A DNA stretch of 64,000 nt from Aeromonas rivipollensis (GTDB lineage Bacteria > Pseudomonadota > Gammaproteobacteria > Enterobacterales > Aeromonadaceae): assembly GCF_010974825.1 (NCBI RefSeq), contig NZ_JAAILA010000026.1, positions 62,001 through 126,000 on the forward strand, written 5' to 3'. The position numbers were made by a program, and so were the translations under genes. The notes below the pieces were generated by a model. The model did not search any database, had not been told where the DNA came from, and was given only the letters and a program-made list of their open reading frames with translations. Below are positions 19,208-63,001 of this stretch, one piece after another; within the stretch, counting starts at the first letter, position 1; each line of letters starts with the position of its first letter.

Positions 19208-20846
19208 GCGTAAGACGAGGTGGAAACCGGGCTCTGACTTTATGAGCTCGGCCGCCGCTATCTGGATGGTGCCACTGCTGGCGCTGTTCATCGGAGCCTG
19301 GATGCTGTTCCAGCACTGGTATTCACAGGGCCCCAGCTTCACCCTGACGGTCGCCACCGCCGAGGGCATAGTGGCGGGCAAGACGGTGATCCGCTCCCGT
19401 GAGGTGGAAGTGGGTCGCATCGAGGCGGTGGAGCTCAGCGACGACTACAGCCATGCGGTGCTCAAGGCTCGTCTGACCAATGCCGCCGCCGGCATGCTAA
19501 AGAAGGACAGCCAGTTCTGGGTGGTCAAACCCAGGGTCGGACGGGAAGGGGTGTCGGGTCTTGGCACCCTGCTCTCCGGGGCCTACATCGAACTCGCCCC
19601 GGGCAAGAAGGGCAAGGCGCGCGGTGAATACGCCATGCTGGACAAGCCCCCGCTCGCCTCGGTGGACGCCAAGGGGCTGAGGCTCTCCCTCAGCAGCCGC
19701 GATGCGCGTGCCCTGGGGGTCGGCTCTCCCATCAGCTATCAGGGCTTCACCATAGGCCAGATAGAAGAGGCCAAGTTCCTGCCCGAGAAGAGCGAGATGC
19801 AGTACCAGCTCTTTATCAATGCCCCCTACGACATCCTGGTGAGCAGCAACTCCCGCTTCTGGCTGACGCCGGGCTTCGAGGTCTCCATGAGCAGTGAGGG
19901 GATGAAGGTGAAGATGGACTCGCTGGAGAGCCTGCTTGACGGCGGCATCACCATGGGGTTGCCGCCAGGCTGGACACCCGGTGAGCCGGTCAAGCAGATG
20001 GACAGCTTCACCCTGTTCCAGGACGAGGCGAGCGTGCTGGCCGGTAGCCTGGATCAGTTCATCGACTACGTCTTCCTGTTCGAGGACAACGTGGGTGGCC
20101 TGCACCCCGGGGCGGCGGTGCAGTACCGCGGCATCCGGGTCGGCACCGTCATCTCTGCCCCCTACCTCATCGACGACAAGGGGGTGCAGATCTTCCAGAG
20201 CCGGCAGATCCCCGTGCTGGCTCGCATCGAGGTGCAGCGCCTCTCCCATCGCTACGCCAATGCGGAGCGGGAGCAGTGGCGTGCCCTGTTCAGCAAGCAG
20301 TTCAAGGAGGGATTGCGGGCCAGTCTCAAGACGTCCAGTCTGCTGACCGGCGGCAAGGTGGTGGATCTCAACTTCTATCCGGATGCCCCCGCCTATAAGC
20401 CCATCAAGCTGGCAGGCTATCAGGTGTTCCCGACAGTGCAGGCCGGGCTGGATCAGATAGAGCGCAAGGTGAACCTCATCCTCGACAAGTTCGTCGACAT
20501 GGACATGGCCACCACGCTGACGCAGGTGAATACCACCCTGGCGACCCTGGACAAGACCCTCAAGCACATCAAGGCCGTGAGTGCCAATCTGGAGCAGTTC
20601 ACCGGTCAGCGTTCGACCCAGCAGTTGCCCGAGTCGCTCAACCAGAGCCTCAAGCAGTTGCAGGAGACAATGCAGGCCTATGATGCCGGCTCCCAGACCA
20701 ACCAGGAGCTGCGTCAGTCGGTGCAGTCTCTCAATCAGCTGATGGGGGAGTTGCAACCCCTGGTCCATTCACTGAACGAGCAGCCCAGTTCGCTGATCTT
20801 CGACCGCTCCCATCCCCAGGATCCTGAGCCCAAGCGAGGAAAATAA
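19200..20846 (+). CDS. pqiB: PqiB, three-MCE-domain periplasmic lipid-transport protein
   Basis: 548 residues, the usual PqiB length. One N-terminal membrane helix (AAAIWMVPLLALFIGAWML) anchors a periplasmic part with three MCE domains, recognisable from SFTLTVATAEGIVAGKTVIR, RLSLSSRDARALGVGSPISY and LHPGAAVQYRGIRVGTV. A long C-terminal helix (residues about 420-530) follows; in E. coli PqiB these helices form a coiled-coil needle bridging the periplasm. The GTG start at 19200 has AAGGAG upstream and overlaps pqiA. The last 12 or so codons are repeated downstream (see the mini-ORF at 20846). Confidence 0.94.
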   Translation: MSERKTRWKPGSDFMSSAAAIWMVPLLALFIGAWMLFQHWYSQGPSFTLTVATAEGIVAGKTVIRSREVEVGRIEAVELSDDYSHAVLKARLTNAAAGMLKKDSQFWVVKPRVGREGVSGLGTLLSGAYIELAPGKKGKARGEYAMLDKPPLASVDAKGLRLSLSSRDARALGVGSPISYQGFTIGQIEEAKFLPEKSEMQYQLFINAPYDILVSSNSRFWLTPGFEVSMSSEGMKVKMDSLESLLDGGITMGLPPGWTPGEPVKQMDSFTLFQDEASVLAGSLDQFIDYVFLFEDNVGGLHPGAAVQYRGIRVGTVISAPYLIDDKGVQIFQSRQIPVLARIEVQRLSHRYANAEREQWRALFSKQFKEGLRASLKTSSLLTGGKVVDLNFYPDAPAYKPIKLAGYQVFPTVQAGLDQIERKVNLILDKFVDMDMATTLTQVNTTLATLDKTLKHIKAVSANLEQFTGQRSTQQLPESLNQSLKQLQETMQAYDAGSQTNQELRQSVQSLNQLMGELQPLVHSLNEQPSSLIFDRSHPQDPEPKRGK

Positions 20847-20947
20847 TGATGTCCCTGACTTTGCCAACCCTTAATCGAGAGGCCAAATTCGTAGATCTTC
20901 GACCGCATCCATTCCCCCAGGATCCTGAGCCTAAGCGAGGAAAATGA
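20846..20947 (+). CDS. 33-codon mini-ORF made by a duplicated pqiB/pqiC junction
   Basis: The pqiB stop overlaps an ATG-ATG that opens a 33-residue frame. Its last residues (QDPEPKRGK) are the same as the last residues of PqiB, and its TGA lies inside the pqiC ATGATG. The DNA at 20795-20851 (pqiB tail, ribosome site, start) is repeated with small changes at 20894-20949. The mini-ORF therefore starts with the first copy of the pqiC start and ends with the second copy of the pqiB tail. It may simply be a duplication scar or may couple pqiC translation to pqiB. No protein function can be read from it. Confidence 0.55.
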   Translation: MMSLTLPTLNREAKFVDLRPHPFPQDPEPKRGK

Positions 20948-21516
20948 TGAAAAAACGGATGATGACCCTGGCCTTGCTGGGCCTGCTGGCGGGATGCAGC
21001 GCTGCCCCGACGACACTGCACTACTACTCGCTGGATGCGGAGATCCCGCAGTCGAACGGCGTCACGGCGCAGCCCCAGCACCAGCTGGTGCTGCGTCCCG
21101 TCGCCCTCTCTGGCCAGTTGGATCGGATGAGCCTGGTCTATCAGCTGGAGGGCAAGGAGCTGCACTTTGCCGAGTACCATCGCTGGGCGGGTTCGCTCGA
21201 CGCTCAGCTGAACCAGCTCACCCTCAATGGCCTCTCCAGCCGGTTGCCGGGCTGGGTAGTGCGTCAGGACGGGGCCCGCAAGGGACCTGTGCTGACCATC
21301 TCGGTTGAACGCTTCCAGGGGCGGCACGATGGTCGCGCCCTGCTCAGCGGCCGCTGGCGCTTGTTGACGGAGGAGGGGGTGGTACTGCGGGACGTGCCCT
21401 TCCAGCAGGAGCGGGTCTTGCCGGCCGATGGGTATGGTGCCCTGGTCGACGAGCTGGGGCAGGGCTGGCAGCAACTGCTCGATCAGATAGCGGCGGATGT
21501 ACGCACTCGCAGCTGA
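20944..21516 (+). CDS. pqiC: PqiC, outer-membrane lipoprotein of the Pqi system
   Basis: 190 residues, DUF330/PqiC (YmbA) family. The N-terminus MMKKRMMTLALLGLLAGCS is a lipoprotein signal with lipobox LAGC, Cys about residue 19, and no Asp at +2, so sorting to the outer membrane is expected. The body begins LHYYSLD, typical of the family. In E. coli PqiC caps PqiB at the outer membrane. The start ATGATG has the duplicated GCGAGGAAAA ribosome site before it. A strong terminator follows at 21528. Confidence 0.9.
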   Translation: MMKKRMMTLALLGLLAGCSAAPTTLHYYSLDAEIPQSNGVTAQPQHQLVLRPVALSGQLDRMSLVYQLEGKELHFAEYHRWAGSLDAQLNQLTLNGLSSRLPGWVVRQDGARKGPVLTISVERFQGRHDGRALLSGRWRLLTEEGVVLRDVPFQQERVLPADGYGALVDELGQGWQQLLDQIAADVRTRS

Positions 21517-21527
21517 ACGGGACAATG

Positions 21528-21557
21528 AAAAACGGGAGGCCTGGGCCTCCCGTTTTG
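21528..21557. terminator. Bidirectional terminator between pqiC and ompA
   Basis: AAAACGGGAGGCC and its reverse complement, separated by two bases, with A-run before and T-run after. It serves the convergent pqiABC and ompA transcripts. Confidence 0.88.
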
Positions 21558-21572
21558 TTATCTGACGCTGGG

Positions 21573-26146: not shown

Positions 26147-27216
<1,070 letters not shown>

Positions 27217-27228
27217 ATTATTCTCATA

Positions 27229-27327
27229 TTATTGATTTAAAACAAAATTAACCCACGTGTAGCAGTCTTTGTGCTGATACCAGTACAACGCACGGGTGGC
27301 GAAAGTGCTGTTATCTGAATGGCTCAC
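27229..27327 (-). pseudogene. Duplicated mutY start forming a 32-codon mini-ORF
   Basis: A GTG at 27325-27327 opens a 32-residue frame whose first 18 residues ([17 protein letters not shown] after the start) copy MutY ([17 protein letters not shown]). The DNA repeat covers 27164-27236 and 27275-27347 at a spacing of 111 bases. Synonymous differences (Arg CGG/CGT, Tyr TAC/TAT) show that the copies have diverged. The frame stops just before the real mutY start. It is most simply a fragment of a duplicated gene start; a leader-peptide role is possible. Confidence 0.6.
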
Positions 27328-27421
27328 GGTGTTCTCATGTTTTGATTAAAAAGGGGAGCTCTCGGGCTCCCTCTTGAAATGCCGGCCAGGCCCGCAGGCC
27401 CGGCTTGCCATTGTGGCTCGC

Positions 27422-38439: not shown

Positions 38440-40065
38440 TTACAGCTGCGGGCCCGCAGCGACCAGGCGTTTGCCTTCGTCGTTGTCGGTGAAGCGCTCG
38501 AAGTTCTTGATGAAGCGCTGGGCCAGATCCTGGGCCTTGGCGTCCCACTCCGCCTGGTCGGCATAAGTGTCGCGCGGGTCGAGGATGGCCGGGTTCACAT
38601 CGTGCAGCTCGGTCGGCACTTCCAGGTTGAAGATAGGCAGCACCTTGGTCGGCGCCTGCTCGATGGAACCATCCAGGATGGCATCTATGATGGCGCGGGT
38701 GTCCTTGATGGAGATGCGCTTGCCGGTGCCGTTCCAGCCGGTGTTGACCAGATAGGCTTCGGCTCCTGAGGCTTCCATCCGCTTCACCAGCTCCTGACCG
38801 TACTTGGTCGGGTGCAGGCTGAGGAAGGCGGCGCCGAAGCAGGAGGAGAAGGTCGGCGTCGGCTCTGTGATGCCGCGCTCGGTACCGGCCAGCTTGGCGG
38901 TGAAGCCTGACAGGAAGTGGTACTTGGTCTGCTCCTTGGTCAGCTTGGCGACCGGAGGCAGCACCCCGAAGGCGTCGGCGGTCAGGAAGATCACCTTGTT
39001 GGCGTGACCCGCCTTGGAGACCGGCTTGACGATGTTCTCGATGTGATAGATGGGGTAGGAGACGCGGGTGTTCTCGGTCTTGGAGCCATCATCGAAGTCT
39101 ATGGTGCCGTCGGCTGCGACCGTCACGTTCTCCAGCAGGGCGTCGCGACGGATGGCGTTGTAGATATCCGGCTCGGCTTCCTTGGAGAGCTTGATGGTCT
39201 TGGCGTAGCAGCCCCCTTCGAAGTTGAACACGCCGTGGTCGTCCCAGCCGTGCTCGTCGTCACCGATGAGCTGGCGCTTGGGATCGGTGGAGAGGGTAGT
39301 CTTGCCGGTACCGGAGAGGCCGAAGAAGATGGCCACGTCCCCATCCTTGCCCACGTTGGCGGAGCAGTGCATGGAGGCGATGCCGCGCAGGGGCAGGAAG
39401 TAGTTCATCATGGAGAACATGCCCTTCTTCATCTCGCCACCGTACCAGGTGCCACCGATGAGCTGCATCTTCTCTGTCATGTTGAAGGCGACGAAGTTCT
39501 CGGAGTTGAGACCCTGCTCCTTCCAGTTCGGGTTGGTGCACTTGGCACCGTTCATCACCACGAAGTCCGGCTTGAAGGTCTTGAGCTCTTCCTCGCTCGG
39601 GCGGATGAACATGTTCTTCACGAAGTGCGCCTGCCAGGCCACCTCTGTGATGATGCGCACCGCCAGGCGGGTGTCCGGGTTGGCGCCGCAGTAGCCATCC
39701 ACCACGAACAGGCGCTTGCCGGAGAGCTGTTTGGTCACCAGGGATTTCAGATCTGACCACACTTCCGGGGTGATTGCCTTGTTATCGTTCTTGCCCTGGT
39801 CAGACCACCACACAGTATCCTGGGTGGTGCCGTCCTTGACGATATATTTATCTTTCGGGGAACGACCGGTGAAGATGCCGGTGTTGACATTGACGGCGCC
39901 GAGTTCGGTAACGACGCCACGTTCGAATCCTTCCAGGTCTGGGCGGGTCTCTTCTGCGAAAAGCTGCTCATAGGAGGGGTTGCGAACGATTTCCTGGCTG
40001 TTTTTGATACCGTACTGGTCCAGTTTCAGTTGTTGTGCCAGGGCGGGTTCTACCACGATAGTCAT
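38440..40065 (-). CDS. pckA: Phosphoenolpyruvate carboxykinase (ATP)
   Basis: 541 residues, ATP-dependent PEPCK that converts oxaloacetate to phosphoenolpyruvate, the first step of gluconeogenesis. The substrate motif is [14 protein letters not shown], the kinase-1a P-loop is [12 protein letters not shown], and the metal site includes the conserved DDEHGWDD and [10 protein letters not shown]. The arginine in GRSPKD and the C-terminal adenine-binding region ([11 protein letters not shown]) are intact. The leader contains a hairpin at 40117-40133. It is monocistronic. Confidence 0.97.
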
Positions 40066-48533: not shown

Positions 48534-48949
48534 CGGGCACCAGCGCAGGCGGCGAGGGAGTTCGCAGCATCGCCCCGGCGGGCGGGCCCGCCAGGGCGCG
48601 CGGCATGACGCTGCTGGAGGTCATGGTGGCGCTGGCGGTATTTGCCATCGCCGGCCTTGCGGTGATGAAGACCGCCAGCGAGCACCTCTCCGGCCTCAAC
48701 TACCTGGAGCAGAAGACCCTGGCGACCTGGGTGGTGGAGAACCAGCTGGTGCAGCAGAAGCTCGAGGGCAAGTGGCCGGGAGACAGCTGGGTGGAAGGGG
48801 ACGAGGAGATGGCCGGGCAGACCTGGTACTGGCGCTATCGTGGCGTCGCCACCAGCGACAACAACTTCAAGGCCCTGGACGTGGAGGTGCGCACCGCGCC
48901 CAAGGCAGAGAGCCCTGTGGCCATGATGCGGACCTATATCAGCCGATGA
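48530..48949 (+). CDS. exeI: Minor pseudopilin ExeI (GspI)
   Basis: 139 residues from a GTG overlapping the exeH stop. The prepilin site [20 protein letters not shown] has Gly at -1 and Glu at +5. The leader is then 25 residues, rich in Gly and Ala, much longer than the 6-8 usual in GspI. No start codon closer to the motif exists except the Met at +1 itself. With ExeJ and ExeK it forms the pseudopilus tip. Confidence 0.92.
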
Positions 48950-49665
48950 TCCCGAGCAACACCCGCCTTTCCCGCCACAGTGGCTTTACCCTGCTTGAGA
49001 GGTTGCTGCGGCCATCGCCCATGTCGGTGACCTCAGGCCGACGCTCTGTCCGCCAGGCCGGCTTTACCCTGCTTGAGATGCTGGTGGCCATTGCCATCTT
49101 CGCCAGCCTCAGCATGGGGGCCTATCAGGTGCTGCAGGGGGTGCTCACCAGCGACGAGGTGGCCAAGCGCAAGGAGGTTCGCCTCTCCGAGCTGCAGCTC
49201 GCCTTCAGCCTGCTGGAGCGTGACATCACCCAGATGGTGCCGCGCAGCGGCCGCATCGAAGGCGAGAACAACAAGGTGCTGCTGGCGGCCTCCCGCTTCG
49301 GCCAGCAGAGCGATGACTGGGGCATGGCCTTCATCCGTGGCGGCTGGCTCAATCCGGACGGCATGCTGCCGCGCTCCGGCTTGCAGCGGGTGGGCTGGCG
49401 GCTCAAGGAGCAGACCCTGGAGCGGCTCAGCTACCTCTATCCGGACCCCGCTATCGGCACAGGCCCGCGCATTCAGCCGGTGCTGACCGGGGTGACGGCC
49501 CTGCGGCTCTATTTCTACGACAAGGGCATGTGGAAGGAGGAGTGGACCCAGCGCGACCTGCTGCCCTATGGGCTGGCGGTGGAGCTGGATCTGGCGGATT
49601 ACGGCACCATTCGTCGCCAGTTCCTGATCGGGGCCGGCGGTCAGAGGGCGGACAATGGCAATTAA
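48946..49665 (+). CDS. exeJ: Minor pseudopilin ExeJ (GspJ) with a duplicated prepilin motif
   Basis: 239 residues if translation starts at the ATG overlapping the exeI TGA. Two prepilin cleavage motifs follow each other: [14 protein letters not shown] (Gly13-Phe14) and [19 protein letters not shown] (Gly39-Phe40). The DNA of the first (48973-49020) is a diverged copy of the second at a spacing of 78 bases, in frame. Only the second continues into a proper hydrophobic helix, so it is the working site; the ATG at 49021 (protein MSVTSGRRS) may be the original start but lacks a good ribosome site. The remainder is a normal GspJ. Confidence 0.93.
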
Positions 49666-49765
49666 GCGTCATTTTTCTCCGGCCATCATGGGGGATAACG
49701 GCACCCTTGGTCGCCGCCAGTTCCTGATCGGGGCCGGTGGTCAGAGGGCTGACAATGGCAGCTAG
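49655..49765 (+). CDS. 36-codon mini-ORF from a duplicated exeJ/exeK junction
   Basis: The DNA at 49602-49671 (exeJ tail, AGAGGG ribosome site, exeK start) is repeated at 49698-49771, 96-100 bases on. The first copy of the exeK start (ATGGCAATTAAGCGTC) opens a 36-residue frame that ends with a copy of the ExeJ tail ([17 protein letters not shown]) and stops inside the real exeK start. Copy differences include synonymous ones (Gly GGC/GGT, Ala GCG/GCT). No independent function is seen. Confidence 0.55.
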
Positions 49766-50765
49766 GCGTCGCTCCCGCCCCGGTCGGCAAGGGGGCATGG
49801 CCCTGCTGGTGGTGCTGCTTATTCTGTCGGTGATGGTGATCATCGCCAGCAACATGAGCGGCCGGTTGCAGCTGGAGCTGCGCCGGACCAGCAACCTCAC
49901 GGCTGGCAAGCAGGCCTGGTGGTATGCCATGTCGGCGGAGGCGCTGGTGATCAAGGTGCTCAACCAGGACTTCAAGGATGACCCCGATGTGGTCAACCTG
50001 GGCCAGAACTGGGCACGGCAAGATGCCGTCTTCCCGGTGGACGACGGCACCCTGTCCGGGCGGGTGAGGGATCTGCAATCCTGCTTCAACCTCAACAGCC
50101 TGAGCCTGGCCCTGAAAGAGGGTGAGAGCGGCGATGATCTCGATGCGCAACCCTATCAATTCAAGGCGTTCCGGGCGCTGCTCGAGGCGCTGGAGGTGGA
50201 TGAGTACGAGGCGGTGCAGCTCACCGACGCCATCCGCGACTGGACCGACAAGAATACCCAGCTGGTCTCGAGTAACGGGGCCGAGGATGCCTATTACGAG
50301 GGGCTCAATCCCCCCTATCTGGTGGCGAACCAGTGGCTGCTGGGCACGGACGAATTGCGGGCCGTGCGCGGGGTGAGCAGCGAGCTCTACGCCCGGCTCG
50401 CCCCCTATGTGTGCACCCTGCCAAACGACAAGCTGGTGGTGAACATCAACACCATCAAGCCGGAGCAGGCGGCCCTGCTGGTGGGGCTCTATCAGGGCAA
50501 GATAGGGCTGGACGACGCCAAGCGGGTGCTGACCAACCGCCCCAAGAAGGGGTGGAAGGAGAAGAAGGAGATGACGGATGAGCTGTCGATACAACCGGGC
50601 AGCATCACTGGGCTGGACGGCGCGCTGGACATCAAGAGCAGCTTCTTCGAGGCCCGTCTGCTGGCAGAGGTGGGTGATGTGCGGGCCCGGCTGGAGACTG
50701 TCTTCCAGCGCGGCAAGGACAACAAGCTGGTGATGCTGCGCCGTCTGAACGACGGTGCCGAATAA
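49755..50765 (+). CDS. exeK: Minor pseudopilin ExeK (GspK)
   Basis: 336 residues. The leader [14 protein letters not shown] precedes [20 protein letters not shown]; as in other GspK proteins, position +5 is not Glu, fitting its place at the very tip. The large globular domain follows. The ATG at 49755 has AGAGGG upstream; a GTG at 49737 is an alternative. The ribosome site and start are duplicated 100 bases upstream. Confidence 0.95.
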
Positions 50766-52068: not shown

Positions 52069-52556
52069 TGGACAAACTGCAAGGCTGGTGGCGTGGCATC
52101 AGTCCCCGCGAACAGCGGCTGGTGGCGGTGGGGGGTTGCGCCCTGCTGATCGGGCTCTGCTACTGGGTCATCTGGCAGCCCGTCGCCAATCGCATCGACG
52201 AGCGGCAGCGGCAGGTGGCCAACCAGCAGCAGACGCTCGCCTGGTTGAAAGAGAAGGGGCAGGAGGTGCTGGCGATGCAGGGGGGCCAAGGCCGCCAGAT
52301 CGACACCAGCGGCACCCTGGACGGGGTGGTGAACCGCACTGCCTTCAACCAGAAGATCAAGATAGCCCGGCTGCAACCCCAGGGGCAGGAGCTGCAGGTG
52401 TGGATAGACACAGTCCCGTTCGAGGATCTGCTGCTCTGGCTGGCGACCCTCTCCGATCAGTATGGAGTCCAGGTGCAGATCATAGAGGTGGCCCGGGAGG
52501 GGCTGGCGCCCGGCCTGGTCAAGGTCAGGCGTTTGCAGTTGAGCCGTCCCCAATGA
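52065..52556 (+). CDS. exeM: Type II secretion protein ExeM (GspM)
   Basis: 163 residues. One membrane helix near the N-terminus ([19 protein letters not shown]), a coiled-coil segment ([19 protein letters not shown]) and a periplasmic ferredoxin-like domain. It stabilises ExeL in the platform. Its TGA overlaps an ATG that opens a mini-ORF. Confidence 0.95.
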
Positions 52557-52657
52557 CACCAAACGTACCGAGCGCCGTCCGGTTTTTGGCATGGCGCTCC
52601 GTGTTGGCTCCTGGCTTGGCCCGGGCCGGATCCTTGCAGTCGAGTCCTGTTCTATGA
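52553..52657 (+). CDS. 34-codon mini-ORF between exeM and exeN
   Basis: An ATGA at the exeM stop opens a 34-residue frame that itself ends in an ATGA with the exeN start, 101 bases later. The sequence around the two ATGA sites is related (TTGCAGTTGAG and TTGCAGTCGAG before; ATGACACCAAACGT and ATGAAACAAAAAGT after), which suggests a diverged tandem duplication of the exeM/exeN junction. The peptide itself matches nothing I know. Confidence 0.45.
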   Translation: MTPNVPSAVRFLAWRSVLAPGLARAGSLQSSPVL

Positions 52658-53412
52658 AACAAAAAGTCCTGATCGCCGCCCTGTTTCTGGTGGCCTATCT
52701 CGGTTTCCTGCTGGTGACGTTGCCCGCCACCCTGGTGGTGCGCCATCTGCCGCTGCCCCCCAACCTGGTGCAGCTGGAAGGGGTGAGCGGTACCCTCTGG
52801 AGCGGCCAGATTGCCCGGCTGCAATATGCCAGCGAGTCCCTGACCCAGCTGCGCTGGGAGCTCGACGGCTGGTCGCTGCTGCGTCTGGCTCCCGAGGTGT
52901 CGGTGCGTTTCGGCGACCGCGCCGGCCTCAACGGTCAGGGGGTGATCGGTTGGAATGGCGCCGCCTTCGGTCGTGACATCACCCTCAACGCCCCCGCTCC
53001 CTGGCTGCTGGCGCGGGTGCCCACGCGCCTGCCCTTCCCCCTGACGGCGGCGGGTCAGCTGCAACTCAAGGTCGATCAGTTCGCCCAGGGCAAGCCCTGG
53101 TGTGAGGAGCTCTACGGCAACCTCAACTGGTACGGCGCCGAGGCCGACACCCCGGCGGGCAAGCTGCTGCTGGGGGACCCCGAGCTCAAGCTGACCTGTC
53201 TCGATTCCCGTCTGGTGGCCGAGCTCAAGCAGAGCTCCGAGGCGGTGCAGGTGCAGGGCAAGCTGGAGTTGCAGGCCAATCGCCAGTATCTGTTCCAGGG
53301 CACCCTAAAGCCTGGGCCCGAGCTGCCGGATCAGATGAAGCAGGGGCTGCCCTTCCTCGGTCAACCCGACGGCCAGGGCCGCTTCCCGCTGCGCTATCAG
53401 GGCCGGATCTGA
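52654..53412 (+). CDS. exeN: Type II secretion protein ExeN (GspN)
   Basis: 252 residues. An N-terminal membrane anchor (LIAALFLVAYLGFLLVTLP) is followed by a periplasmic domain with the GspN pattern (VSGTLWSGQIARLQY, LTAAGQLQLKV, two Cys). GspN is present in only some type II systems and its role is not settled. Last gene of the operon. The frame is open upstream to 52591 but the ATG at 52654 fits the family. Confidence 0.93.
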   Translation: MKQKVLIAALFLVAYLGFLLVTLPATLVVRHLPLPPNLVQLEGVSGTLWSGQIARLQYASESLTQLRWELDGWSLLRLAPEVSVRFGDRAGLNGQGVIGWNGAAFGRDITLNAPAPWLLARVPTRLPFPLTAAGQLQLKVDQFAQGKPWCEELYGNLNWYGAEADTPAGKLLLGDPELKLTCLDSRLVAELKQSSEAVQVQGKLELQANRQYLFQGTLKPGPELPDQMKQGLPFLGQPDGQGRFPLRYQGRI

Positions 53413-54499: not shown

Positions 54500-55768
54500 A
54501 TGATCGACCCCCATTTGCTCACCGACCTGACCGAGCGTGGCCTGGTGGCCCAGATGTCCGACCCGGCGGCCCTGGCCTCCCACCTCGCCACGGCGCGCAC
54601 CCTCTACTGCGGCTTCGATCCCACCGCCGGCAGCCTGCACATAGGCCACCTGGTGCCGCTCCTGATGTTGCGCCGCTTCCAGCTGGCGGGCCACACCCCT
54701 GTGGCCCTGGTAGGCGGAGCAACCGGCCTCATTGGCGATCCCAGCTTCAAGGCGACCGAGCGCAGCCTCAACAGCGCCGAAACCGTGCAGGGCTGGGTGG
54801 CCAGCCTGTCGGCCCAGATCAAGGCACTGCTGCCCGCGAGCGAGGGGCTGGCGGCCCCTGTGCTGGTCAACAACACCGACTGGATGGGGCAGATGTCCGC
54901 CCTCGATTTTCTGCGGGACATCGGCAAGCACTTCTCGGTCAACGCCATGCTGGCGCGGGAATCGGTGCGCCAGCGGCTGGCCCGCCCGGATCAGGGGATC
55001 TCCTTTACCGAGTTCTCCTATGCCCTGCTGCAATCCCAGGATTTCGCCGTGCTCAACCAGCGCCTCGGCTGCACCCTGCAGATCGGCGGCAACGATCAGT
55101 GGGGCAACATCACCAGCGGCATGGATCTCACCCGCCGGCTGCATCAGGCCCAGGTTCACGGCATGACACTTCCCCTCATCACCAAGGCGGACGGCACCAA
55201 GTTCGGCAAGACCGAGGGGGGCGCCATCTGGCTGGATCCGGCGCTCACCTCGCCCTACGCCTTCCATCAGTTCTGGCTCGGTACCGCAGACGAGGATGTC
55301 TACCGCTTCCTGCGCTACTACAGCTTTATGCCGCTGGCCGAGATTGCCGCGCTGGAGGCGGAAGACGCCGGTCGGCAGGGACGCAAGCAGGCTCAGCAGG
55401 TGCTGGCGGACGAGCTGACCGAACTGGTGCACGGCAAGGGGGCACTGGCGGCGGCGCGGCGCATCGGCGAGCTGCTGTTTTGCGGCGACGTGGCCCGCCT
55501 CGGCGAGAGCGATCTCGCCCAGTTGGCCCAGGATGGCCTGCCTTGCAGTCGCATCGAGGGAGCCACAGATCTGGTGACCCTGCTGGTCGAGAGCGGTCTG
55601 GCAAGCTCGAAGCGGGTGGCCCGCGAGTTGCTAGGGGCGGGCGCCATCAGCCTCAACGGCGTGATAAAACAGGATGAGCAGCTGAGTGCAGAGGATCGGC
55701 TGTTTGAGCGCTACCTGCTGCTGCGCCGGGGCAAGAAACAGTACCGGCTGGTGGAGTGGGTGGACTAG
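54500..55768 (+). CDS. tyrS: Tyrosyl-tRNA synthetase
   Basis: 422-residue class I synthetase of the TyrS-1 type (E. coli 424). The HIGH motif is [11 protein letters not shown], the KMSKS equivalent is KFGKTEGG, and the tyrosine pocket includes [10 protein letters not shown] and GGNDQWGNI. The C-terminal S4 domain ([19 protein letters not shown]) binds tRNA. GGAG lies before the ATG. A terminator follows at 55788. Confidence 0.97.
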
Positions 55769-55787
55769 CTCGCCCGACATCAATGAG

Positions 55788-55812
55788 AAAGGGCTGCCCA
55801 GGCAGCCCTTTT
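55788..55812 (+). terminator. Rho-independent terminator after tyrS
   Basis: AAAGGGCTGCC, short loop, GGCAGCCCTTTT, then TCATT. Confidence 0.88.
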
Positions 55813-55872
55813 CATTGTGTGTCTCGGCCCCTCAGCTGCCCGGCATGCAGGGGGGGAGGCCCTGCCTAAGGA

Positions 55873-55944
55873 TCAAAGGGTCAGCGGCAGCAACTCGGCG
55901 TAGTCGCGGAACATGCAGGGGAAGGTGGTCAGTGGTTTCCCCAT
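55873..55944 (-). pseudogene. Duplicated 3' end of yrfG
   Basis: A 65-base segment (55871-55935) repeats the last codons and stop of yrfG 96 bases downstream of the real end. In the same reading sense it encodes TTFPCMFRDYAELLPLTL and stops, against TAFPAIRDYAELLPLTL at the YrfG end. Differences such as GAG TTG for GAA CTG are synonymous. A short open frame of 23 codons covers it, but it reads as a gene-end fragment, not a gene. Confidence 0.65.
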
Positions 55945-55968
55945 CGCTGCGCTGCGCCAAATGCCGAA

Positions 55969-56637
55969 TCAAAGGGTCAGCGGCAGCAGTTCGGCGTAGT
56001 CGCGGATCGCCGGGAAGGCGGTAATCTGCTGTTCCGGCTGGCGACTGTCCGGGTTCTGGATGGCGAGCTGATAACCGATGCCGTAGTCGGCGGCGGCGCG
56101 CAGGATCCGCTCGCTGTCATCGACAAACAGGGTGCGGGCCGGATCGAACGCCAGTCGCTCGGCCAGCGCCTGCCAGCAGTGCTGGCTCTCCTTCGACCAG
56201 CCCAGCTCATGGGTGCTCACCATAAGATCCAGATGCTCGGCGAGGCCGAGCCGCGCATCCTTCACCGACAGGCTGGCAGGGTGGGCATTGGTGAAGAGCA
56301 CCAGCTGCTTGCCCGCCGCCCGCAGGGCGGCCAGGAAGGGGATGACATGGGGCCGCCACTGGATCTTCTCCAGGATCTCCTGCTTGAGGGCGCTGATGTC
56401 GAGCCCGAGCGTCCGGCTCCAGTAATCGACGCAGTACCAGTCTAGGGTGCCGCTGACGGCCTGATAGTGGGCCTCGATCTGCGCCTTGGCGTCGGCCAGC
56501 GGCAGGCCGAGGCGCGCGGCGTAGCGCTCGGGCACCAGCTGCTGCCAGAGGTGGCTGTCAAAATGAAGGTCGATCAGGGTGCCATCCATGTCGAGCAGAA
56601 CTGTGTCTATCTGGTGCCAGGGCAGTTGGGTGGGCAT
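55969..56637 (-). CDS. yrfG: GMP/IMP nucleotidase YrfG
   Basis: 222-residue HAD hydrolase (E. coli YrfG 222). Motif I is VLLDMDGTLIDLHFD, motif II LFTNAHP, motif III the Lys in WSKESQ and motif IV LFVDDSERIL. The HFDSHLW cap region is typical of YrfG, a purine 5'-nucleotidase. AGAGG precedes the ATG. In E. coli yrfG lies near nudE and hslRO; here nudE is the divergent neighbour. The end of the gene is duplicated downstream. Confidence 0.94.
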   Translation of the reverse strand: MPTQLPWHQIDTVLLDMDGTLIDLHFDSHLWQQLVPERYAARLGLPLADAKAQIEAHYQAVSGTLDWYCVDYWSRTLGLDISALKQEILEKIQWRPHVIPFLAALRAAGKQLVLFTNAHPASLSVKDARLGLAEHLDLMVSTHELGWSKESQHCWQALAERLAFDPARTLFVDDSERILRAAADYGIGYQLAIQNPDSRQPEQQITAFPAIRDYAELLPLTL

Positions 56638-56783
56638 GGGGCCTCTTTGTGTCGGACTGGGTGGGGAAAACGGGGCGCATTATAACGGATTTTTCAGGCA
56701 CCTTTCCGGCCCTTGCCCCGTGGTGTTCCCTCGGGGAGTCGTTTACTCTTGAAGCACTCTTTTTTAACGAGCAGTCAGCCCCG

Positions 56784-57392
56784 ATGAGTGACCCCCACAA
56801 GTGCAAACCCGAACACGTCCGCGTCGAGGCCATGGCCCACGACAAGCGCAAGCCGGAGATCATCAAGGCCGAGCTGGTGGCCGAGAGTCGGCTGTTCAAG
56901 GTGGAATCCCTGCATCTGAAATTCAGCAATGGGGAGGAGCGGGTCTACGAGCGGATGCGCGGCGGCAACAGAGGTGCCGTCATGGTGGTGCCCCTGTTCG
57001 ATGCCCACACCCTGCTGCTGGTGCGCGAATACGCGGCAGGCACTCACTCCTACGAGCTGGGCTTCCCCAAGGGGCTGATCGATCCCGGCGAAGATGCCTT
57101 CGAGGCGGGCAACCGGGAGCTGATGGAGGAGGCGGGCTTCGGGGCCCGTGACCTCATTCCCCTCAAGCAGGTCTCCCTGGCTCCCGGCTATTTTTCCAGC
57201 CGGATGGACATACTGCTGGCGCGGGATCTCTACCCCGAGCAGCGGATCGGCGATGAGCCCGAGCCCCTCGAGGTGATCCCCTGGCCCCTCAATCGCATCG
57301 ACGAATTGCTGGCGCGACCCGACTTCACCGAGTCGCGCAGCATCAGTGCCCTGCTGCTGGCCAGCAAATGGCTGGCGGAGCAGGAAAGCTAG
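56784..57392 (+). CDS. nudE: ADP compounds hydrolase NudE
   Basis: 202 residues from ATG 56784. The Nudix box is GLIDPGEDAFEAGNRELMEEAGF, complete. NudE hydrolyses ADP-ribose, Ap3A and NADH. E. coli NudE starts at the position of the second ATG (56832, protein MAHDKRKPEIIKAE). The first 16 codons (DPHKCKPEHVRVEA) look like a diverged in-frame copy of that start, so the protein may begin at either site. Divergent from yrfG, as in enterobacteria. Confidence 0.92.
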   Translation: MSDPHKCKPEHVRVEAMAHDKRKPEIIKAELVAESRLFKVESLHLKFSNGEERVYERMRGGNRGAVMVVPLFDAHTLLLVREYAAGTHSYELGFPKGLIDPGEDAFEAGNRELMEEAGFGARDLIPLKQVSLAPGYFSSRMDILLARDLYPEQRIGDEPEPLEVIPWPLNRIDELLARPDFTESRSISALLLASKWLAEQES

Positions 57393-57433
57393 CCCAAGCC
57401 TGGGCAAAGGTAATAAAAACAGAGGATAACAAG

Positions 57434-58246
57434 ATGCAGGAGTTGTTGGCCTGGATACCTGGGGTCAAGGAGATAGCCCGCGAAGCGGGGCGTATCCTTC
57501 ACGAAATCTATCACGGCGGTCAGTTCGAGCGTCAGCTGAAGGAGGATGCGACCCCGGTCACCAGTGCCGATCTTGCTGCCGATGCCTACCTCAAGCAGGC
57601 GCTGTCGGCGCTCACCCCCCATGTGCCCGTGCTGACCGAAGAGGCTGCCGATGTGCCCTTCAGCCAGCGTGCCAACTGGCGGCAATACTGGCTGGTGGAC
57701 CCCCTGGACGGCACCGGCGAGTTCATCGCCGGCAGCGGTGACTTCGCCACCCTGATCGCCCTGGTGCGGGACAATGTCCCCGTGCTCGGGGTCATCTATG
57801 CCCCCGAGGCCGACGTGCTCTACTGGGCGGTGCGCGGTCACGGCGCCTTCAAGGAGGTGAACGGCGAGGTGCATCCCATCAGCGCCATGCACCACGAGCA
57901 CGACCAGCCCGACTCCCTGGTGGTGGCCATCAGCCGCCGCCAGAAGCTGGAGAACCTGACCCGCCGCCTCAACCCGGCCATCAACTACGAGCTGATCCCG
58001 CTTGGCTCAAGCTCCCTCAAGTCCTGCCTGGTGGCGGAAGGGGCGGCAGACTGCTATGTGCGGCTCGGCCCCACCGGCGAGTGGGACACCGCCGCCGCCC
58101 AGTGCATCGTCGAGGCGGCGGGGGGGCGCATCCTCAGCCTGGCGTTGCAGCCGCTCAGCTACAACGAAACCGAGTCGTTGGAGAACCCTGACTTCATTGT
58201 GATGGGGGACCCGGATCTCGCCTGGGGCAAGATCCTGACTCACTGA
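57434..58246 (+). CDS. cysQ: 3'(2'),5'-bisphosphate nucleotidase CysQ
   Basis: 270 residues of the inositol monophosphatase fold. Metal ligands are in LTEEAA, DPLDGTGEF and GEWDTAAAQCIVEAAGG. It removes the 3'-phosphate of PAP formed in sulfate assimilation. It follows nudE by 41 bases and is probably cotranscribed with it. AGAGGATAA lies before the ATG. Note the variant GTGEF where many homologues have GTKEF. Confidence 0.95.
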   Translation: MQELLAWIPGVKEIAREAGRILHEIYHGGQFERQLKEDATPVTSADLAADAYLKQALSALTPHVPVLTEEAADVPFSQRANWRQYWLVDPLDGTGEFIAGSGDFATLIALVRDNVPVLGVIYAPEADVLYWAVRGHGAFKEVNGEVHPISAMHHEHDQPDSLVVAISRRQKLENLTRRLNPAINYELIPLGSSSLKSCLVAEGAADCYVRLGPTGEWDTAAAQCIVEAAGGRILSLALQPLSYNETESLENPDFIVMGDPDLAWGKILTH

Positions 58247-58273
58247 GCCGGTTGAAATGTAGCCGAATCATCC

Positions 58274-58301
58274 AATCAGGCGGCCTCGTGGCCGCCTGAT
58301 T
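58274..58301 (+). terminator. Hairpin terminator after cysQ
   Basis: AATCAGGCGGCC, loop TCGT, and the complementary arm. The stem is strong, the T-run weak. Confidence 0.7.
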
Positions 58302-58658
58302 GCTTGGTGTGATCCGCTGGCTTGTCACGACATATTCAGGTGTATTCGCTACTTTAATGGATTGCTGTAGTGGATCATCACAGCCAAACCCAAAGCGCTG
58401 GCATCTCTTTTCATGTAATTCTGAAAACTTAGAATTGGTCGAAATAAAAAATCGACCAATAGTGATATTTTGGTTTTATATTTCGTCAAATTGCCTATTT
58501 AAAGGTTTATCAGAACGAGGTGGGCTGGAAATTCCGCCCAATCTCACTGGCTGAACCGAGTTTTGCCAGTGAGATCTGCCAATGCCGATTTTTGAGAATT
58601 AAATGCTAAAGGAGCACAATATTCTTAGATTTTAATACTATATATAAGTGGTTTATCA
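58302..58658. other. AT-rich intergenic region upstream of the SdaC-like gene
   Basis: About 357 bases, clearly richer in A and T than the surrounding sequence, with no credible gene. It contains an 11-base perfect inverted repeat (ATCTCACTGGC at 58541-58551 and its complement at 58565-58575), a smaller GGGC/GCCC hairpin just before it (about 58522-58539), an unused-looking AAGGAG near 58609 and a TATATATAAG stretch near 58641 that could be the -10 region. It could hold a regulated promoter, a structured leader or an sRNA; I recognise no known motif. Confidence 0.5.
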
Positions 58659-59927
58659 ATGAGTTCATCTGCAGAGGTCTCCCGGGAGTTATCCGGTTCC
58701 CACTCCACCACTGCCGGCACCGGCTGGCGTCGTCACGATACCCACTGGGTCATCAGCCTGTTTGGCACCGCGGTCGGCGCCGGCATCCTGTTCCTGCCCA
58801 TCAACCTGGGTCTGGGGGGCATCTGGCCCCTGGTTATCGTCGCCGTGCTGGCCGGCCCCATGACCTTCCTGGCCCACCGCGGGCTGGCGCGCTTCGTGCT
58901 CTCTTCCTCCCGCCCCCACGCCGACTTCACCGAGGTGGCGGAGGAGCATTTCGGCAAGATGGCCGGTCGCCTCATCTCGGCGCTCTACTTCCTCTCCATC
59001 TTCCCTATCCTGCTCATCTACGGCGTCGGGCTGACCAACACTGTGGAGAGCTTCATGATCAACCAGCTCGGCATGGATGCCCCGAATCGGGTGATGCTCT
59101 CCGGCCTGCTGGTGTTCGCCATGATTGCGGTGATGATGGCGGGGGAGAAGGCGATGCTGCGGGCTTTTGCCTTTATGGTCTACCCGTTGGCGGCCATTCT
59201 GGCGGCGCTCTCCTGCTATTTGATCCCCCAGTGGCAGTGGCCACAAATGACCGCCTTCGAGGGGACCAGCTTCCTCAACACCGTCTGGCTGGCGCTGCCG
59301 GTGACAGTGTTCGCCTTCAGCCACGCGGCCGCCATCTCCGGCTTTGCCAACGTGCAGCGCCGTGAATATGGCGAGCAGGCGGAGGCCAAGAGCGGCCTGA
59401 TCCTGCGCAACACCACAGTCATGCTGGTGGGCTTCGTGCTCTTCTTCGTCTTCTCCTGCGTGCTGAGCCTCTCCCCGGCCCAGCTGGCCGAGGCCAAGGC
59501 CCAGAACGTCTCGGTGCTCTCCTATCTCGCCAACATCACAGACAACCCTGTGATAGTGACCCTGGGGCCGCTGATCGCCTTCATCGCCATCAGCTCCTCC
59601 TTCCTCGGCCACTTCCTCGGTGCCCGGGAGAGCCTCAAGAGCCTGATCGCCAAGCCCACAGGGCTGTCGCTGGCCAAGTCGGACAAGCTGGGCATCGCCC
59701 TGATGTTCTTCGCCATCTGGGGGGCGGCTGTCATCAACCCCGGCATCCTGGGTCTGATGGAGACCCTCTCCGGCCCCGTCATCGCCATGATCCTCTTCAT
59801 CATGCCGGTGATTGCGATCTACAAGGTGGAGGCGCTGGCCCGCTTCCGTCAGGGCTGGGTGAACGGCTTTATCCTGCTGACCGGGTCGCTGGCTGTCTCG
59901 GCCCTGGTCTTCAGCCTGCTTAAGTAA
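58659..59927 (+). CDS. HAAAP-family amino acid transporter (SdaC-like, serine)
   Basis: 422 residues with 11 predicted helices. It follows E. coli SdaC closely along its length: GTAVGAGILFLPINLGLGG, TEVAEEHFGKMAGRLI, FFVFSCVLSLSPAQLAEAKAQNVSVLSYLAN and SSFLGHFLGARES. SdaC is a proton/serine symporter; paralogues carry threonine or tyrosine, so serine is the likely but unproven substrate. The ATG has no good ribosome site, and the mRNA leader appears to be AT-rich. Confidence 0.88.
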   Translation: MSSSAEVSRELSGSHSTTAGTGWRRHDTHWVISLFGTAVGAGILFLPINLGLGGIWPLVIVAVLAGPMTFLAHRGLARFVLSSSRPHADFTEVAEEHFGKMAGRLISALYFLSIFPILLIYGVGLTNTVESFMINQLGMDAPNRVMLSGLLVFAMIAVMMAGEKAMLRAFAFMVYPLAAILAALSCYLIPQWQWPQMTAFEGTSFLNTVWLALPVTVFAFSHAAAISGFANVQRREYGEQAEAKSGLILRNTTVMLVGFVLFFVFSCVLSLSPAQLAEAKAQNVSVLSYLANITDNPVIVTLGPLIAFIAISSSFLGHFLGARESLKSLIAKPTGLSLAKSDKLGIALMFFAIWGAAVINPGILGLMETLSGPVIAMILFIMPVIAIYKVEALARFRQGWVNGFILLTGSLAVSALVFSLLK

Positions 59928-59950
59928 CAGCTGCGCTGCGGCCAGAAAAA

Positions 59951-59978: not shown

Positions 59979-59999
59979 TCATTTCATGGGGCCAGGGCA

Positions 60000-60338: not shown

Positions 60339-60422
60339 CTTGGCTCCTCCTTTCACACACCTCGCATTGGCGCCAGCATGCCTCGAAACGGCAGCCCCTG
60401 TCTTCGGCAAGGGGCCGGACTG

Positions 60423-61193
60423 TTATGGCTGCGGGCCGTTTTGCTGGCGCCAGCGCGACGGGGTCAACCCCGTCTCGGCCAGGAAGCGCTCGGCGAAGGC
60501 TCCCTGATCCTGATAGCCGCAGCGGCTGGCCACTTCGCCGATGGGCAGGGCACTGTGGGCCAGCAGGGTGCGTGCCAGCGCCATGCGCCGCCCGCGGATG
60601 TAGTGGGAGGCGCTCATGCCGAACTGCTGGCGAAAGGCGTGCTTGAACTGGCTCTGGCCGAGGCAGGCAACAGCGGCGAGCCGCTCGTTGCCAAGGGGCT
60701 CGGCGAGGTGGGTCTCGATGTGGCGCTGCACTCTTGTCATGCGCGGAGCCAGGGCGGGGCCCATGCCCTGACCCTGGGCCAGGAGGTTGAGCCAGATCTG
60801 CTCCATGCCGACCACATGACGACCCTGGCGCACCATCTGATGTAGGAAGGCGAGATAGTGGCGCTGGGGCTCGTCCAGGGGGATGAAGGGGCGCTCGCCC
60901 AGCGCCGCGGGTAGCCAGTGGCTCTCCTGCACCAGGAAGGAGAGCGCCGGATCGGCGGCGTAGTCGTGACGTTCACCCGGGGCTATGACGCAGGCAAAGC
61001 CGGGGGCGAGGCGGCGCCCCTGGCCCTGCACCTCGATCTCGAGGGGGCCGTCCAGGGGGATCACCAGCTGGGCGAAGTCGTGGCTGTGGCTGCTGATGTC
61101 GCTCTGGTAGCGGCGCAGGCTGAACGGGCAGGGGGCGGATAGGGATGACGCGGCACCGGGCCGCGTCATCGAAGAGGGGGGATTATGTGCCAT
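60423..61193 (-). CDS. AraC-family transcriptional regulator
   Basis: 256 residues. An N-terminal cupin-like sensor domain (SHSHDFAQLVIPLDGPLEIEV, GERHDY) precedes the C-terminal double helix-turn-helix (LAAVACLGQSQFKHAFRQQFG and EVASRCGYQDQGAFAERF). The pattern is of the small-metabolite AraC type. It follows metJ by 11 bases on the same strand and could be cotranscribed with it, but a role in methionine control is not implied. Confidence 0.88.
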   Translation of the reverse strand: MAHNPPSSMTRPGAASSLSAPCPFSLRRYQSDISSHSHDFAQLVIPLDGPLEIEVQGQGRRLAPGFACVIAPGERHDYAADPALSFLVQESHWLPAALGERPFIPLDEPQRHYLAFLHQMVRQGRHVVGMEQIWLNLLAQGQGMGPALAPRMTRVQRHIETHLAEPLGNERLAAVACLGQSQFKHAFRQQFGMSASHYIRGRRMALARTLLAHSALPIGEVASRCGYQDQGAFAERFLAETGLTPSRWRQQNGPQP

Positions 61194-61204
61194 GGGCCGC
61201 CGTA

Positions 61205-61528
61205 TTACTCGGCGTCGAAATCTTCGATCTCTTTGCCCAGCGCCTCCATGATGGCGCGCGCCTCGGCGGGGACGCTGTCCGGATGATCCTTGCGCAGATC
61301 GTCGTCACAGGGCAGCGGTTGACCGGTGAATGCGTGCAGGAAGGCCTCACAGAGCAGCTCGCTGTTGGTCGCATGACGCAGGTTGTTCACCTGGCGACGG
61401 GTGCGCTCATCGGTCAACACCTTCAGCACCTTGAGCGGGATCGAGACGGTAATCTTCTTGACCTGTTCGCTCTTCTTGCCGTGCTCCGCATAGGGGCTGA
61501 CGTAGTCGCCGTTCCACTCTGTACCCAT
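61205..61528 (-). CDS. metJ: Methionine repressor MetJ
   Basis: 107 residues, very close to E. coli MetJ ([56 protein letters not shown] region, ribbon-helix-helix). It binds S-adenosylmethionine and represses met genes at tandem met boxes. Three such boxes lie at 61610-61633 between metJ and metB, so it should control its own gene and metBL. Confidence 0.98.
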
Positions 61529-61609
61529 GTTCCACCTGTTCTCGTTTGGCCGTGAGCGCGGATTTTAACCCTTAAGGAATTCAATGGCAATCCAACAGCA
61601 AAGCCATTT

Positions 61610-61633
61610 AGACGTCTAGAAGTGTTGACGGCT
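61610..61633. promoter_or_regulatory. MetJ operator: three tandem met boxes
   Basis: AGACGTCT (61610-61617) is a perfect met box, followed in register by AGAAGTGT (61618-61625) and TGACGGCT (61626-61633), each with six of eight bases. Two or more adjacent boxes are needed for MetJ binding. Confidence 0.85.
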
Positions 61634-61653
61634 TTTTTGAGGTGGCGTAAGGT
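61625..61653 (+). promoter_or_regulatory. metBL promoter
   Basis: TTGACG (61625-61630), 17 bases, TAAGGT (61648-61653). The -35 box lies inside the last met box, so MetJ should block RNA polymerase. The transcript would carry a leader of about 160 bases before metB. Confidence 0.6.
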
Positions 61654-61737
61654 GGTTCACCATAGGCCAGCAATGGCAGGATAGCCGTGGCAGAGGCACA
61701 GCGGCCATCGTCCAGATACACTTCAAGGAGAGCGGAA

Positions 61738-61833
61738 ATGACCCACAAGGCCACCCTGGCGGTACGTTGTATCGGACATAGAGACAGATCAACTGCACAG
61801 TCACAGCGCCAAGGAGAGCATCATGAGTCATAA
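61738..61833 (+). CDS. Duplicated metB start: 31-codon mini-ORF in the metB leader
   Basis: AAGGAGAGC and an ATG at 61738 open a 31-residue frame whose first residues (THKATLAVR) copy MetB (SHKATLAVR). The repeat unit is 85 bases (61724-61770 against 61809-61855), and the frame ends inside the real metB start. CAC/CAT and CGT/CGC are synonymous differences. It could be a duplication scar or an upstream ORF that affects metB translation. Confidence 0.55.
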   Translation: MTHKATLAVRCIGHRDRSTAQSQRQGEHHES

Positions 61834-63001
61834 GGCCACCCTGGCGGTACGCACCGGGATTGAGACAGACACACAGCACGGTGCCGTGGTGCCCCCCATC
61901 TACCTCTCCAGCAACTACACCTTTGCCGACTTTGGCGAGCCCCGTCAATACGATTATGCCCGCTCAGGCAACCCGACCCGCACCAATCTGGCGGACGCGC
62001 TGGCGGCCCTGGAAGGGGGCGCCGGCGCCGTGGTGACCGGCACCGGCATGGGAGCCGTCCATCTGGTGACCACGGCCCTGCTCAAGGCGGGGGATCTGCT
62101 GATCGCCCCCCACGACTGCTACGGCGGTACCTGGCGGCTGTTCGAGTATCTGGCGGCCAAGGGCCACTACAGGGTGCAGTTCGTCGATCAGGGGGATGAA
62201 GCCGCGCTCGCCGAGGCCCTGGCGCAGCAACCGGCCCTGGTGTGGGTAGAGACCCCCTCCAACCCCCTGCTGAGGGTGGTGGACGTGGCCGCCATCGCCG
62301 CCGCCTCCCATGAGGTGGGTGCCAAGGTGGTGGTGGACAACACCTTCCTCTCCCCGCTGCTGCAACAGCCGCTCTCGCTGGGTGCGGACGTGGTGGTGCA
62401 CTCCACCACCAAGTACATCAACGGCCACTCCGACGTGGTGGGCGGGGTCGCGATCGCCAAGGACCAGGCACTGGCCGAGTCCCTGGTGTGGTGGGCCAAC
62501 TGTCTGGGGCTCACCTCCGGCGCCTTCGACTCCTACCTCACCCTGCGTGGCCTGCGCACCCTGGCGCCGCGCCTGCGTGCCCATCAGGAGAACACGGACA
62601 GGATCCTCGCCTTCCTGCAGCAGCAGCCGCTGGTCAAAAAAATCTATCACCCCAGCCTGCCAAGCCACCCGGGTCACGAGATTGCGCGCCGTCAACAGTC
62701 CGGCTTCGGCGCCATGCTAAGTTTTGAACTCGATTGCAACGAGACGGGGCTGCGTGCCTTCCTCGCGGCGCTGCGGCTGTTCTCGGTGGCGGAGTCCCTC
62801 GGCGGGGTGGAGAGTCTGGTGGCCCATCCGGCCAGCATGACCCACAGAGCCATGACTCCGGCGGCGCAGCAGGCGGCGGGCATCAGCGCCCAGTTGCTAC
62901 GCCTCTCTGTGGGCATAGAACACGGTGAAGACCTGGTGGCCGATCTGGCTCAAGGCTTTGAACAGGCGCAGTTGGCACAACAGGCAGAACAGGTGAAGTA
63001 A
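61823..63001 (+). CDS. metB: Cystathionine gamma-synthase MetB
   Basis: 392-residue PLP enzyme that joins O-succinylhomoserine and cysteine to cystathionine. The PLP lysine is in VVHSTTKYINGHSDVVGG; other family motifs are YARSGNPTR, PHDCYGGTWR, VETPSNPLLRVVD and the C-terminal SLGGVESLVAHPASMTH. AAGGAG precedes the ATG. It overlaps metL by one base (TAATG), the standard metBL operon. Confidence 0.97.
   Translation: MSHKATLAVRTGIETDTQHGAVVPPIYLSSNYTFADFGEPRQYDYARSGNPTRTNLADALAALEGGAGAVVTGTGMGAVHLVTTALLKAGDLLIAPHDCYGGTWRLFEYLAAKGHYRVQFVDQGDEAALAEALAQQPALVWVETPSNPLLRVVDVAAIAAASHEVGAKVVVDNTFLSPLLQQPLSLGADVVVHSTTKYINGHSDVVGGVAIAKDQALAESLVWWANCLGLTSGAFDSYLTLRGLRTLAPRLRAHQENTDRILAFLQQQPLVKKIYHPSLPSHPGHEIARRQQSGFGAMLSFELDCNETGLRAFLAALRLFSVAESLGGVESLVAHPASMTHRAMTPAAQQAAGISAQLLRLSVGIEHGEDLVADLAQGFEQAQLAQQAEQVK

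Follow-up and report, generated by a model that had tools for sequence, protein, structure and literature searches.

In a 64,000-nucleotide stretch of Aeromonas rivipollensis DNA (here called the window; its genome is G000 in the comparisons below), the borders of several genes carry short, diverged direct repeats in which the last or first codons of a gene recur about 100 bases away. The original prediction, made from this DNA alone, placed such repeats at pqiB/pqiC, mutY, exeJ/exeK, exeM/exeN, and metB and described an open reading frame of 31 to 36 codons (here called a mini-ORF) at each junction. A diverged direct repeat is present at all five, at offsets of 85 to 111 bases, with mini-ORFs of 33, 32, 36, 34, and 31 codons, respectively. 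Gene names were checked by NCBIfam profile match: PqiB, MutY, GspJ, GspK, the yrfG-type nucleotidase, cystathionine gamma-synthase (MetB), and leucyl aminopeptidase (PepA) scored above cutoff, PqiC and the GspM-family model matched below it, and ExeN had no NCBIfam match, so that exeN is named by position only.

On the forward strand, the working end of pqiB (20777..20849), which overlaps the start of the mini-ORF, is repeated at an offset of 99 to 101 bases in a second copy (20876..20950) that reads into the start of pqiC; the mini-ORF (20846..20947) overlaps both the pqiB stop and the pqiC start. The working start of mutY (27146..27230, reverse strand) has a displaced copy at 27257..27341, offset by 111 bases, and the mini-ORF upstream of the gene occupies 27229..27327 on the same strand. 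The end of exeJ (49611..49670, forward strand) recurs 100 bases on at 90% identity (49711..49770), where the second copy overlaps the exeK start at 49755; the mini-ORF between the two genes spans 49655..49765. The most diverged repeat is that at exeM/exeN, which the standard scan did not catch: the end of exeM with the bases after it (52504..52589, forward strand) and a second copy reading into an exeN start placed at 52654 (52605..52690) agree at 58 of 86 positions at an offset of 101, and the mini-ORF (52553..52657) overlaps the exeM stop and the exeN start. At metB, on the forward strand, the repeat scan paired an upstream diverged copy of the start (61738..61766) with the working start (61823..61851); the two ATGs, at 61738 and 61823, lie 85 bases apart, and the repeat scores 21.5, slightly below the cutoff of 22 used in the survey below. 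Codons 2 and 3 of metB supply the stop of the mini-ORF (61738..61833), which ends within codon 4. Two related events that had been predicted are also there, an in-frame repeat of the prepilin cleavage segment in the exeJ leader (48972..49086, forward strand; copies at 48972 and 49050, offset 78) and an extra copy of the yrfG tail past the end of that gene (55872..55910, reverse strand, detected by the repeat scan; working end at 55968..56006, offset 96). A possible event at nudE was not borne out, since a low-threshold scan of 55001 to 58700 gave the yrfG repeat alone.

The window was compared with 36 other Aeromonas genomes, one of which (G023) is of the same species; the nearest named relatives returned for PepA were A. 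tecta and A. piscicola. Comparison of the same junctions, a check proposed with the original prediction, showed that the same locus-specific tandem units recur, patchily, in several species of the genus. They occur in independent assemblies, including the single-contig genomes G023 (at exeJ/exeK, metB, pepA, and a gene start of G000 designated C34:89345), G015 (at exeJ/exeK, mutY, and C34:89345), and G010, which rules out the assembly effect that had been listed among the possible causes. The pqi unit was present in 2 of the 30 genomes read (G000 and G018) and is absent from the conspecific G023; the mutY unit was present at 4 of 21 loci read (9 more had no anchor), and G005, G024, and G007 have other inserts there; and the metB unit was present in 4 of 30 genomes. 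At yrfG, where 19 of 30 loci had no anchor, G025 carries several more copies. Copy number changes most plainly at exeJ/exeK, where 29 loci were read: in genomes of this type the distance from the gene end to a fixed point in exeK is 29, 129, 229, or 329 bases (38 to 44 in three), so that the unit is exactly 100 bp, and there are 0, 1 (G000, G023, G012, G002, and G015), 2 (G007), or 3 (G019) extra units. In another clade, the exeJ end is instead extended by low-complexity sequence with many AAC, GGC, and AGC codons (L009, L010, L012, L014, L017, L018, L027, L029, and L031). At the other end of exeJ, the exeI/exeJ region ranges from 62 to 251 bases, and several species have the cleavage motif two or three times. 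The lengths of this region fall in one frame only, 2 modulo 3 in 30 of 30 genomes, which would be expected if all of it is translated as the cleaved ExeJ leader; the leader before the prepilin cleavage site (48946-49086 in the window) itself differs between species. On a tree of the 23 genomes with all six loci, the minimum number of gains and losses was 19, compared with a mean of 24.6 for shuffled labels, different inserts or copy numbers at one locus being scored as one state; the presence of units therefore follows descent only weakly.

The abundance of such repeats was surveyed in 464 kb of G000 and in 100 kb each of G010, G015, G016, and G036, as well as in 1.0 Mb from outside the genus (400 kb from the same family and 400 kb from other families of the order, together eight genomes of 100 kb each, and 200 kb of Escherichia coli K-12). 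The scan took diverged repeats 30 to 300 bases apart with a score of at least 22, with transfer RNA (tRNA) genes removed and offsets of 2000 to 2270 as the control; this cutoff misses the metB, exeM/exeN, and exeJ-start repeats of the window. A first scan of G000, at offsets of 40 to 300 and with tRNA genes included, had given 28 local repeats at this score and none at offsets of 2000 to 2260; after tRNA removal there were 22 against none. The samples of G010 and G015 held 8 and 5 repeats, those of G016 and G036 none, and the 1.0 Mb from outside the genus 10; the control offsets gave none in the Aeromonas samples and 4 in the others. Two of the tRNA arrays may be mentioned in their own right: one at 9134-9522 of the window, with near-identical copies 137 to 293 bases apart, where alignment breaks suggest a difference in copy number between G000 and G023, and a tandem array at C34:149903-150288 of G000 (locus L168), which is among the stronger survey repeats and was excluded from the counts.

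Classification by position was restricted to repeats at offsets of 55 to 200 bp and used genes from a simple caller of our own, with approximate starts. The original prediction had named enrichment at gene borders as support and an equal frequency within genes as evidence against it. The result ran counter to the latter. In G000, 16 of 19 such repeats lay on a gene start or stop, 3 were intergenic, and none was within a gene, whereas random placement would put 73% within genes and 61% of the remainder on a boundary (P = 0.029 for 16 of 19). When G000, G010, G015, and G023 were pooled, 39 of 44 lay on a boundary (64% expected, P = 0.0002) and 5 more within genes, a count that mixes G000 and G023, which have units in common. 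Outside the genus, 1 of 7 was on a boundary in 1.0 Mb, with 1 more within a gene. A unit within a gene would break it, and one spanning a border leaves both genes intact; as the expected fractions are already 61% and 64%, most of the boundary bias can be put down to the loss of units that break genes, and a modest excess remains. The median offset was 102 to 105 bases, and the repeated part was shorter than the offset in 18 of 19 G000 cases; perfect duplications are therefore rare.

Each locus has its own unit. When 37 units from G000 and G023 were searched against the 464 kb, they matched at their own locus only, save for four weak short matches (E = 0.004), and 4 G023 units had no match. Dispersed intergenic repeats of the repetitive extragenic palindromic (REP), enterobacterial repetitive intergenic consensus (ERIC), or miniature inverted-repeat transposable element (MITE) type are ruled out, since units of different loci do not match. 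A separate look at 80 loci around pepA (3 from Aeromonas, 1.56 Mb) flagged six repeats at gene boundaries. A. piscicola had one of them and Colwellia two, both at one site; the remaining three resemble simple or in-gene repeats. The Colwellia loci (L305 and L306) show a boundary duplication at an offset of 128, apparently at the same junction as in A. piscicola (L237) and at C34:139712 of G000, upstream of pepA, a junction which we take to be lptF/lptG. This junction may be prone to duplication in other families too.

Between the two strains of the species, 366 kb of G000 and G023 aligned at 96% identity with 35 insertions or deletions (indels) of at least 30 bp, 21 of them at 71 to 171 bp; among 18 that were checked, 13 coincided with boundary repeats that the scan had flagged, and 5 did not. 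Six of the 15 comparable G000 boundary repeats are in both strains, six are cleanly missing in G023, and three otherwise differ in length; for the 14 comparable G023 repeats, the numbers are six in both, seven missing in G000, and one otherwise different. The indel size class alone is a weakened signature, because three pairs of E. coli strains gave 9 indels of at least 30 bp in 139 kb, of which 4 were 70 to 175 bp long and lay between genes; those are probably known intergenic repeats. The special feature in Aeromonas is the link to gene ends and not the size of the indel.

The origin of the two copies could be read most directly at pepA. That DNA had been joined from a related strain was among the causes originally proposed, and in G003 the working pepA end with its flank scores best with G021 (62), then with G025, G022, G001 (56), and G004 (54); its 3' flank alone, of about 40 bases, scores 27 with G025, G021, and G001, compared with 13 or less for shuffles. 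The displaced end with its flank matches G034, G017, and G033 best, and these are among the relatives of G003 at pqiB, mutY, metB, and pepA. G001 is a relative of G003 too, yet its pepA end reads as that of G025. A working end of another clade thus stands beside a displaced end of the genome's own clade, and this is the clearest case of grafting. A single 93-base pepA insert is common to G000/G023 and G026; it holds a recoded gene end with one difference between G000 and G026, whereas the flanking sequences, at 91% and 90% identity to G000, are more diverged than the insert itself. The ancestral end follows the insert in G000, G023, and G026, and the displaced ends best match each genome's own relatives (G019; G007). 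The pepA layout in G000/G026 and in G003 would fit a single-crossover (Campbell-type) duplication, in which the insert would lie between two copies of one segment, each a predicted hybrid of donor and host. At the gene start C34:89345, the displaced leader of G000 is the leader of its relative G019 and the working leader has the ending TCCGGAGATGTT found in other clades; the displaced leader of G001 resembles that of its relative G013, and its working leader is near those of G008 and G015 (2 differences in 28 each). Foreign joining is thus suggested in this species at pepA and at C34:89345.

We consider it probable that, through recombination with related lineages, host genes acquire a grafted end or start while the resident one is left displaced and that mainly the units spanning a boundary survive selection. 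The unit at each locus, of about 75 to 170 bp, contains a gene end or start with its adjoining DNA. In the simplest route, an incoming strand from a related strain would pair within the conserved coding part, and the joint on the far side would fall back into the resident gene end, either through one crossover of a short or circularized fragment or through template switching. The host gene would then be joined to a foreign end and flank, with its own old end following, displaced, outside the gene (the mirror image at gene starts). Units once established can be amplified, lost, and passed between strains and species by homologous recombination. The data show the repeats themselves, their patchy distribution, changes in copy number, the position at boundaries, the bias to third codon positions, and, at pepA in G003, a working end from another clade; from these we infer grafting as the general route, through single-crossover or template-switch recombination.

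The alternative closest to this is that replication slippage duplicated each segment in place, that the redundant half decayed neutrally, and that the boundary cases alone survived. Differences between copies bear on both explanations. Counted in G000, G010, and G015, with offsets below 55 dropped, they fall at codon positions 1, 2, and 3 in numbers of 18, 20, and 57 for stop-type repeats and 12, 6, and 35 for start-type repeats, 30, 26, and 92 in total (28, 24, and 86 if a G010 stretch at 38973 that was entered under both types is counted once). By our own estimate, one dead and one constrained copy would give about 1:1:1.8; the observed ratio is steeper, and both copies therefore seem to have been constrained until recently, which counts against slippage, as do the small number of perfect duplications and the displaced end of one clade beside a working end of another. 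In favor of slippage, copy number changes by whole units, the boundary bias is largely what a neutral filter predicts, and a weak alignment with the host persists in the flanks to either side of the conserved core (P = 7e-8 and 5e-7 compared with swapped pairs, 30 units; single units exceeded the 95% null in 9 of 30 and 13 of 30). Because that homology is two-sided, full tandem duplications that decayed outside the gene-end part seem to be the ancestors of many units. Tandem duplication, another of the causes first proposed, thus holds as anatomy. A further comparison used 13 boundary units filled in one strain and empty in the other: the empty allele was closer to the displaced copy in 5, to the working copy in 5, and tied in 3. 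The mutY allele of G023 is an example of the first kind (47 of 49 matches to the displaced copy, 39 of 49 to the working copy). The 5 units of the second kind speak for slippage. Pure in-place decay would, however, favor the working copy throughout and a rule of foreign working ends the displaced copy, and neither holds alone. On balance, we regard slippage as unlikely.

Several observations weigh against grafting as a general account. A foreign working end as a universal rule is not upheld by the 5-to-5 split with its 3 ties, and grafting is therefore not shown for every unit. A donor clade was identified for one case only, pepA of G003, and the insert of G000/G026 gave no good donor match to the working end (best score, 34). 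The mutY units are less alike between species than the adjoining gene in 6 of 6 pairs (metB was mixed), which fits old drifting units over recent transfer. The two-sided flank homology suggests ordinary tandem duplication as the origin of the units. Grafting also does not account for the size near 100 bp, for the first duplication, or for the lack of repeats in 100 kb each of G016 and G036, two other Aeromonas species.

A different possibility is that the mini-ORFs are translated and have been kept because they couple the translation of two genes or act as leader peptides. When read in several genomes, 19 of 20 mini-ORFs stop where expected and one continues, and the units at pqi, mutY, and metB show no indels in 13 of 13 pairs at 79 to 100% identity. 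Codons 2 and 3 of metB are AGT CAT in 4 of 4 carriers compared with ACC CAC in 26 of 26 noncarriers, a change that creates the mini-ORF stop, although the four carriers may represent one event. The ratio of nonsynonymous to synonymous changes (pN/pS) for the mini-ORFs is 0.34 to 0.57 overall. At exeJ/exeK, the first 15 codons compared give 1.43, an unconstrained spacer peptide, and the remaining codons, a copy of the ExeJ end, give 0.20. The offsets of 49 repeats show no frame preference (17, 12, and 20 at 0, 1, and 2 modulo 3), and frame-driven selection on all units is rejected on this ground, although the exeI/exeJ frame is kept throughout. The first five units measured at C34:89345 vary in length (127 to 139), yrfG and its neighbor end face to face with nothing to couple, and units are missing from many species and, in part, even from the conspecific strain. 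Translational coupling, as originally proposed, thus finds weak support, in the retained stops and at metB; we judge it improbable as the explanation of the units. We regard the mini-ORFs as by-products that arise where tandem copies fall on overlapping stop/start junctions; at metB they may have a role.

Units of this kind might also be tiny integrative elements, inserted by a dedicated process through a single crossover at the gene end. Known integrative elements can carry a substitute gene end, so that the foreign end becomes the working one and the resident end is displaced. The shared 93-base insert in G000/G023 and G026 within more diverged flanks and the 71- to 171-bp class of conspecific indels would agree with this. 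However, the core differs from locus to locus and no sequence is common to the insertions, no recombinase or cargo was seen in units of about 100 bp (no search for a recombinase was made), the size class is also present between E. coli strains, and ordinary recombination can give the same product. Such elements are therefore very improbable here. The close direct repeats known from bacterial genomes are likewise local, diverged, and derived from tandem duplication; the Aeromonas units differ in being tied to gene borders and in being abundant in some Aeromonas genomes and not in others sampled.

Homology-facilitated illegitimate recombination (HFIR) joins one end by homology and the other without it, mostly at 3 to 10 bp of microhomology. 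The layouts at pepA of G003 and at C34:89345 would fit this, but homology on both sides of the core argues that many joints are homologous, and HFIR proper does not fit because it expects a resident deletion similar in size to the insertion, whereas the 13 boundary units each add about one unit and keep the resident end as one of two copies. A precedent for such a product comes from tests for HFIR in E. coli, which are reported to have given a duplication PCR product in 56 of 60 candidate clones and duplications of 109 to 950 bp in the 14 sequenced, ascribed to single crossing-over (PMC3240628). In those products, as in the Aeromonas units, part of the target gene is present twice after homologous DNA has come in; there, however, a plasmid integrates and lacZ is lost, and here the gain is about 100 bp, at many sites, with the gene intact. 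Streptococcus pneumoniae merodiploids made by transformation are also tandem duplications that arise during DNA uptake, but they are far larger (~100 to 900 kb) and form by unequal crossing-over at repeats (PMC3784515). Natural transformation of Bacillus subtilis leaves many short donor segments within mosaic sites, and the passages available describe no tandem gene-end copies, unlike the Aeromonas units (PMC13344027). No description of gene-end tandem units in Aeromonas was found among the titles and abstract beginnings listed by searches of the open-access literature.

If grafting is the general route, recombination remodels gene borders in some Aeromonas at a much higher rate than one would gather from aligned coding regions. 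This would affect the annotation of start sites and create false small ORFs, it could exchange the leaders or the 3' flanks of core genes, and it would provide many natural recombination joints for direct tests of short-tract exchange between species. A stronger version, which we put forward as a tentative and minority possibility, is that a process active in part of the genus adds or swaps ~100-bp tandem units, specific to each locus, at the borders of genes, grafting a foreign end and flank, displacing the resident end by one unit, and spreading units between species as short tracts. Such a process would continually supply new gene ends, leaders, and chance ORFs, and between two strains of one species some one to two hundred gene borders would be different, as extrapolated from the 13 found in 366 kb.

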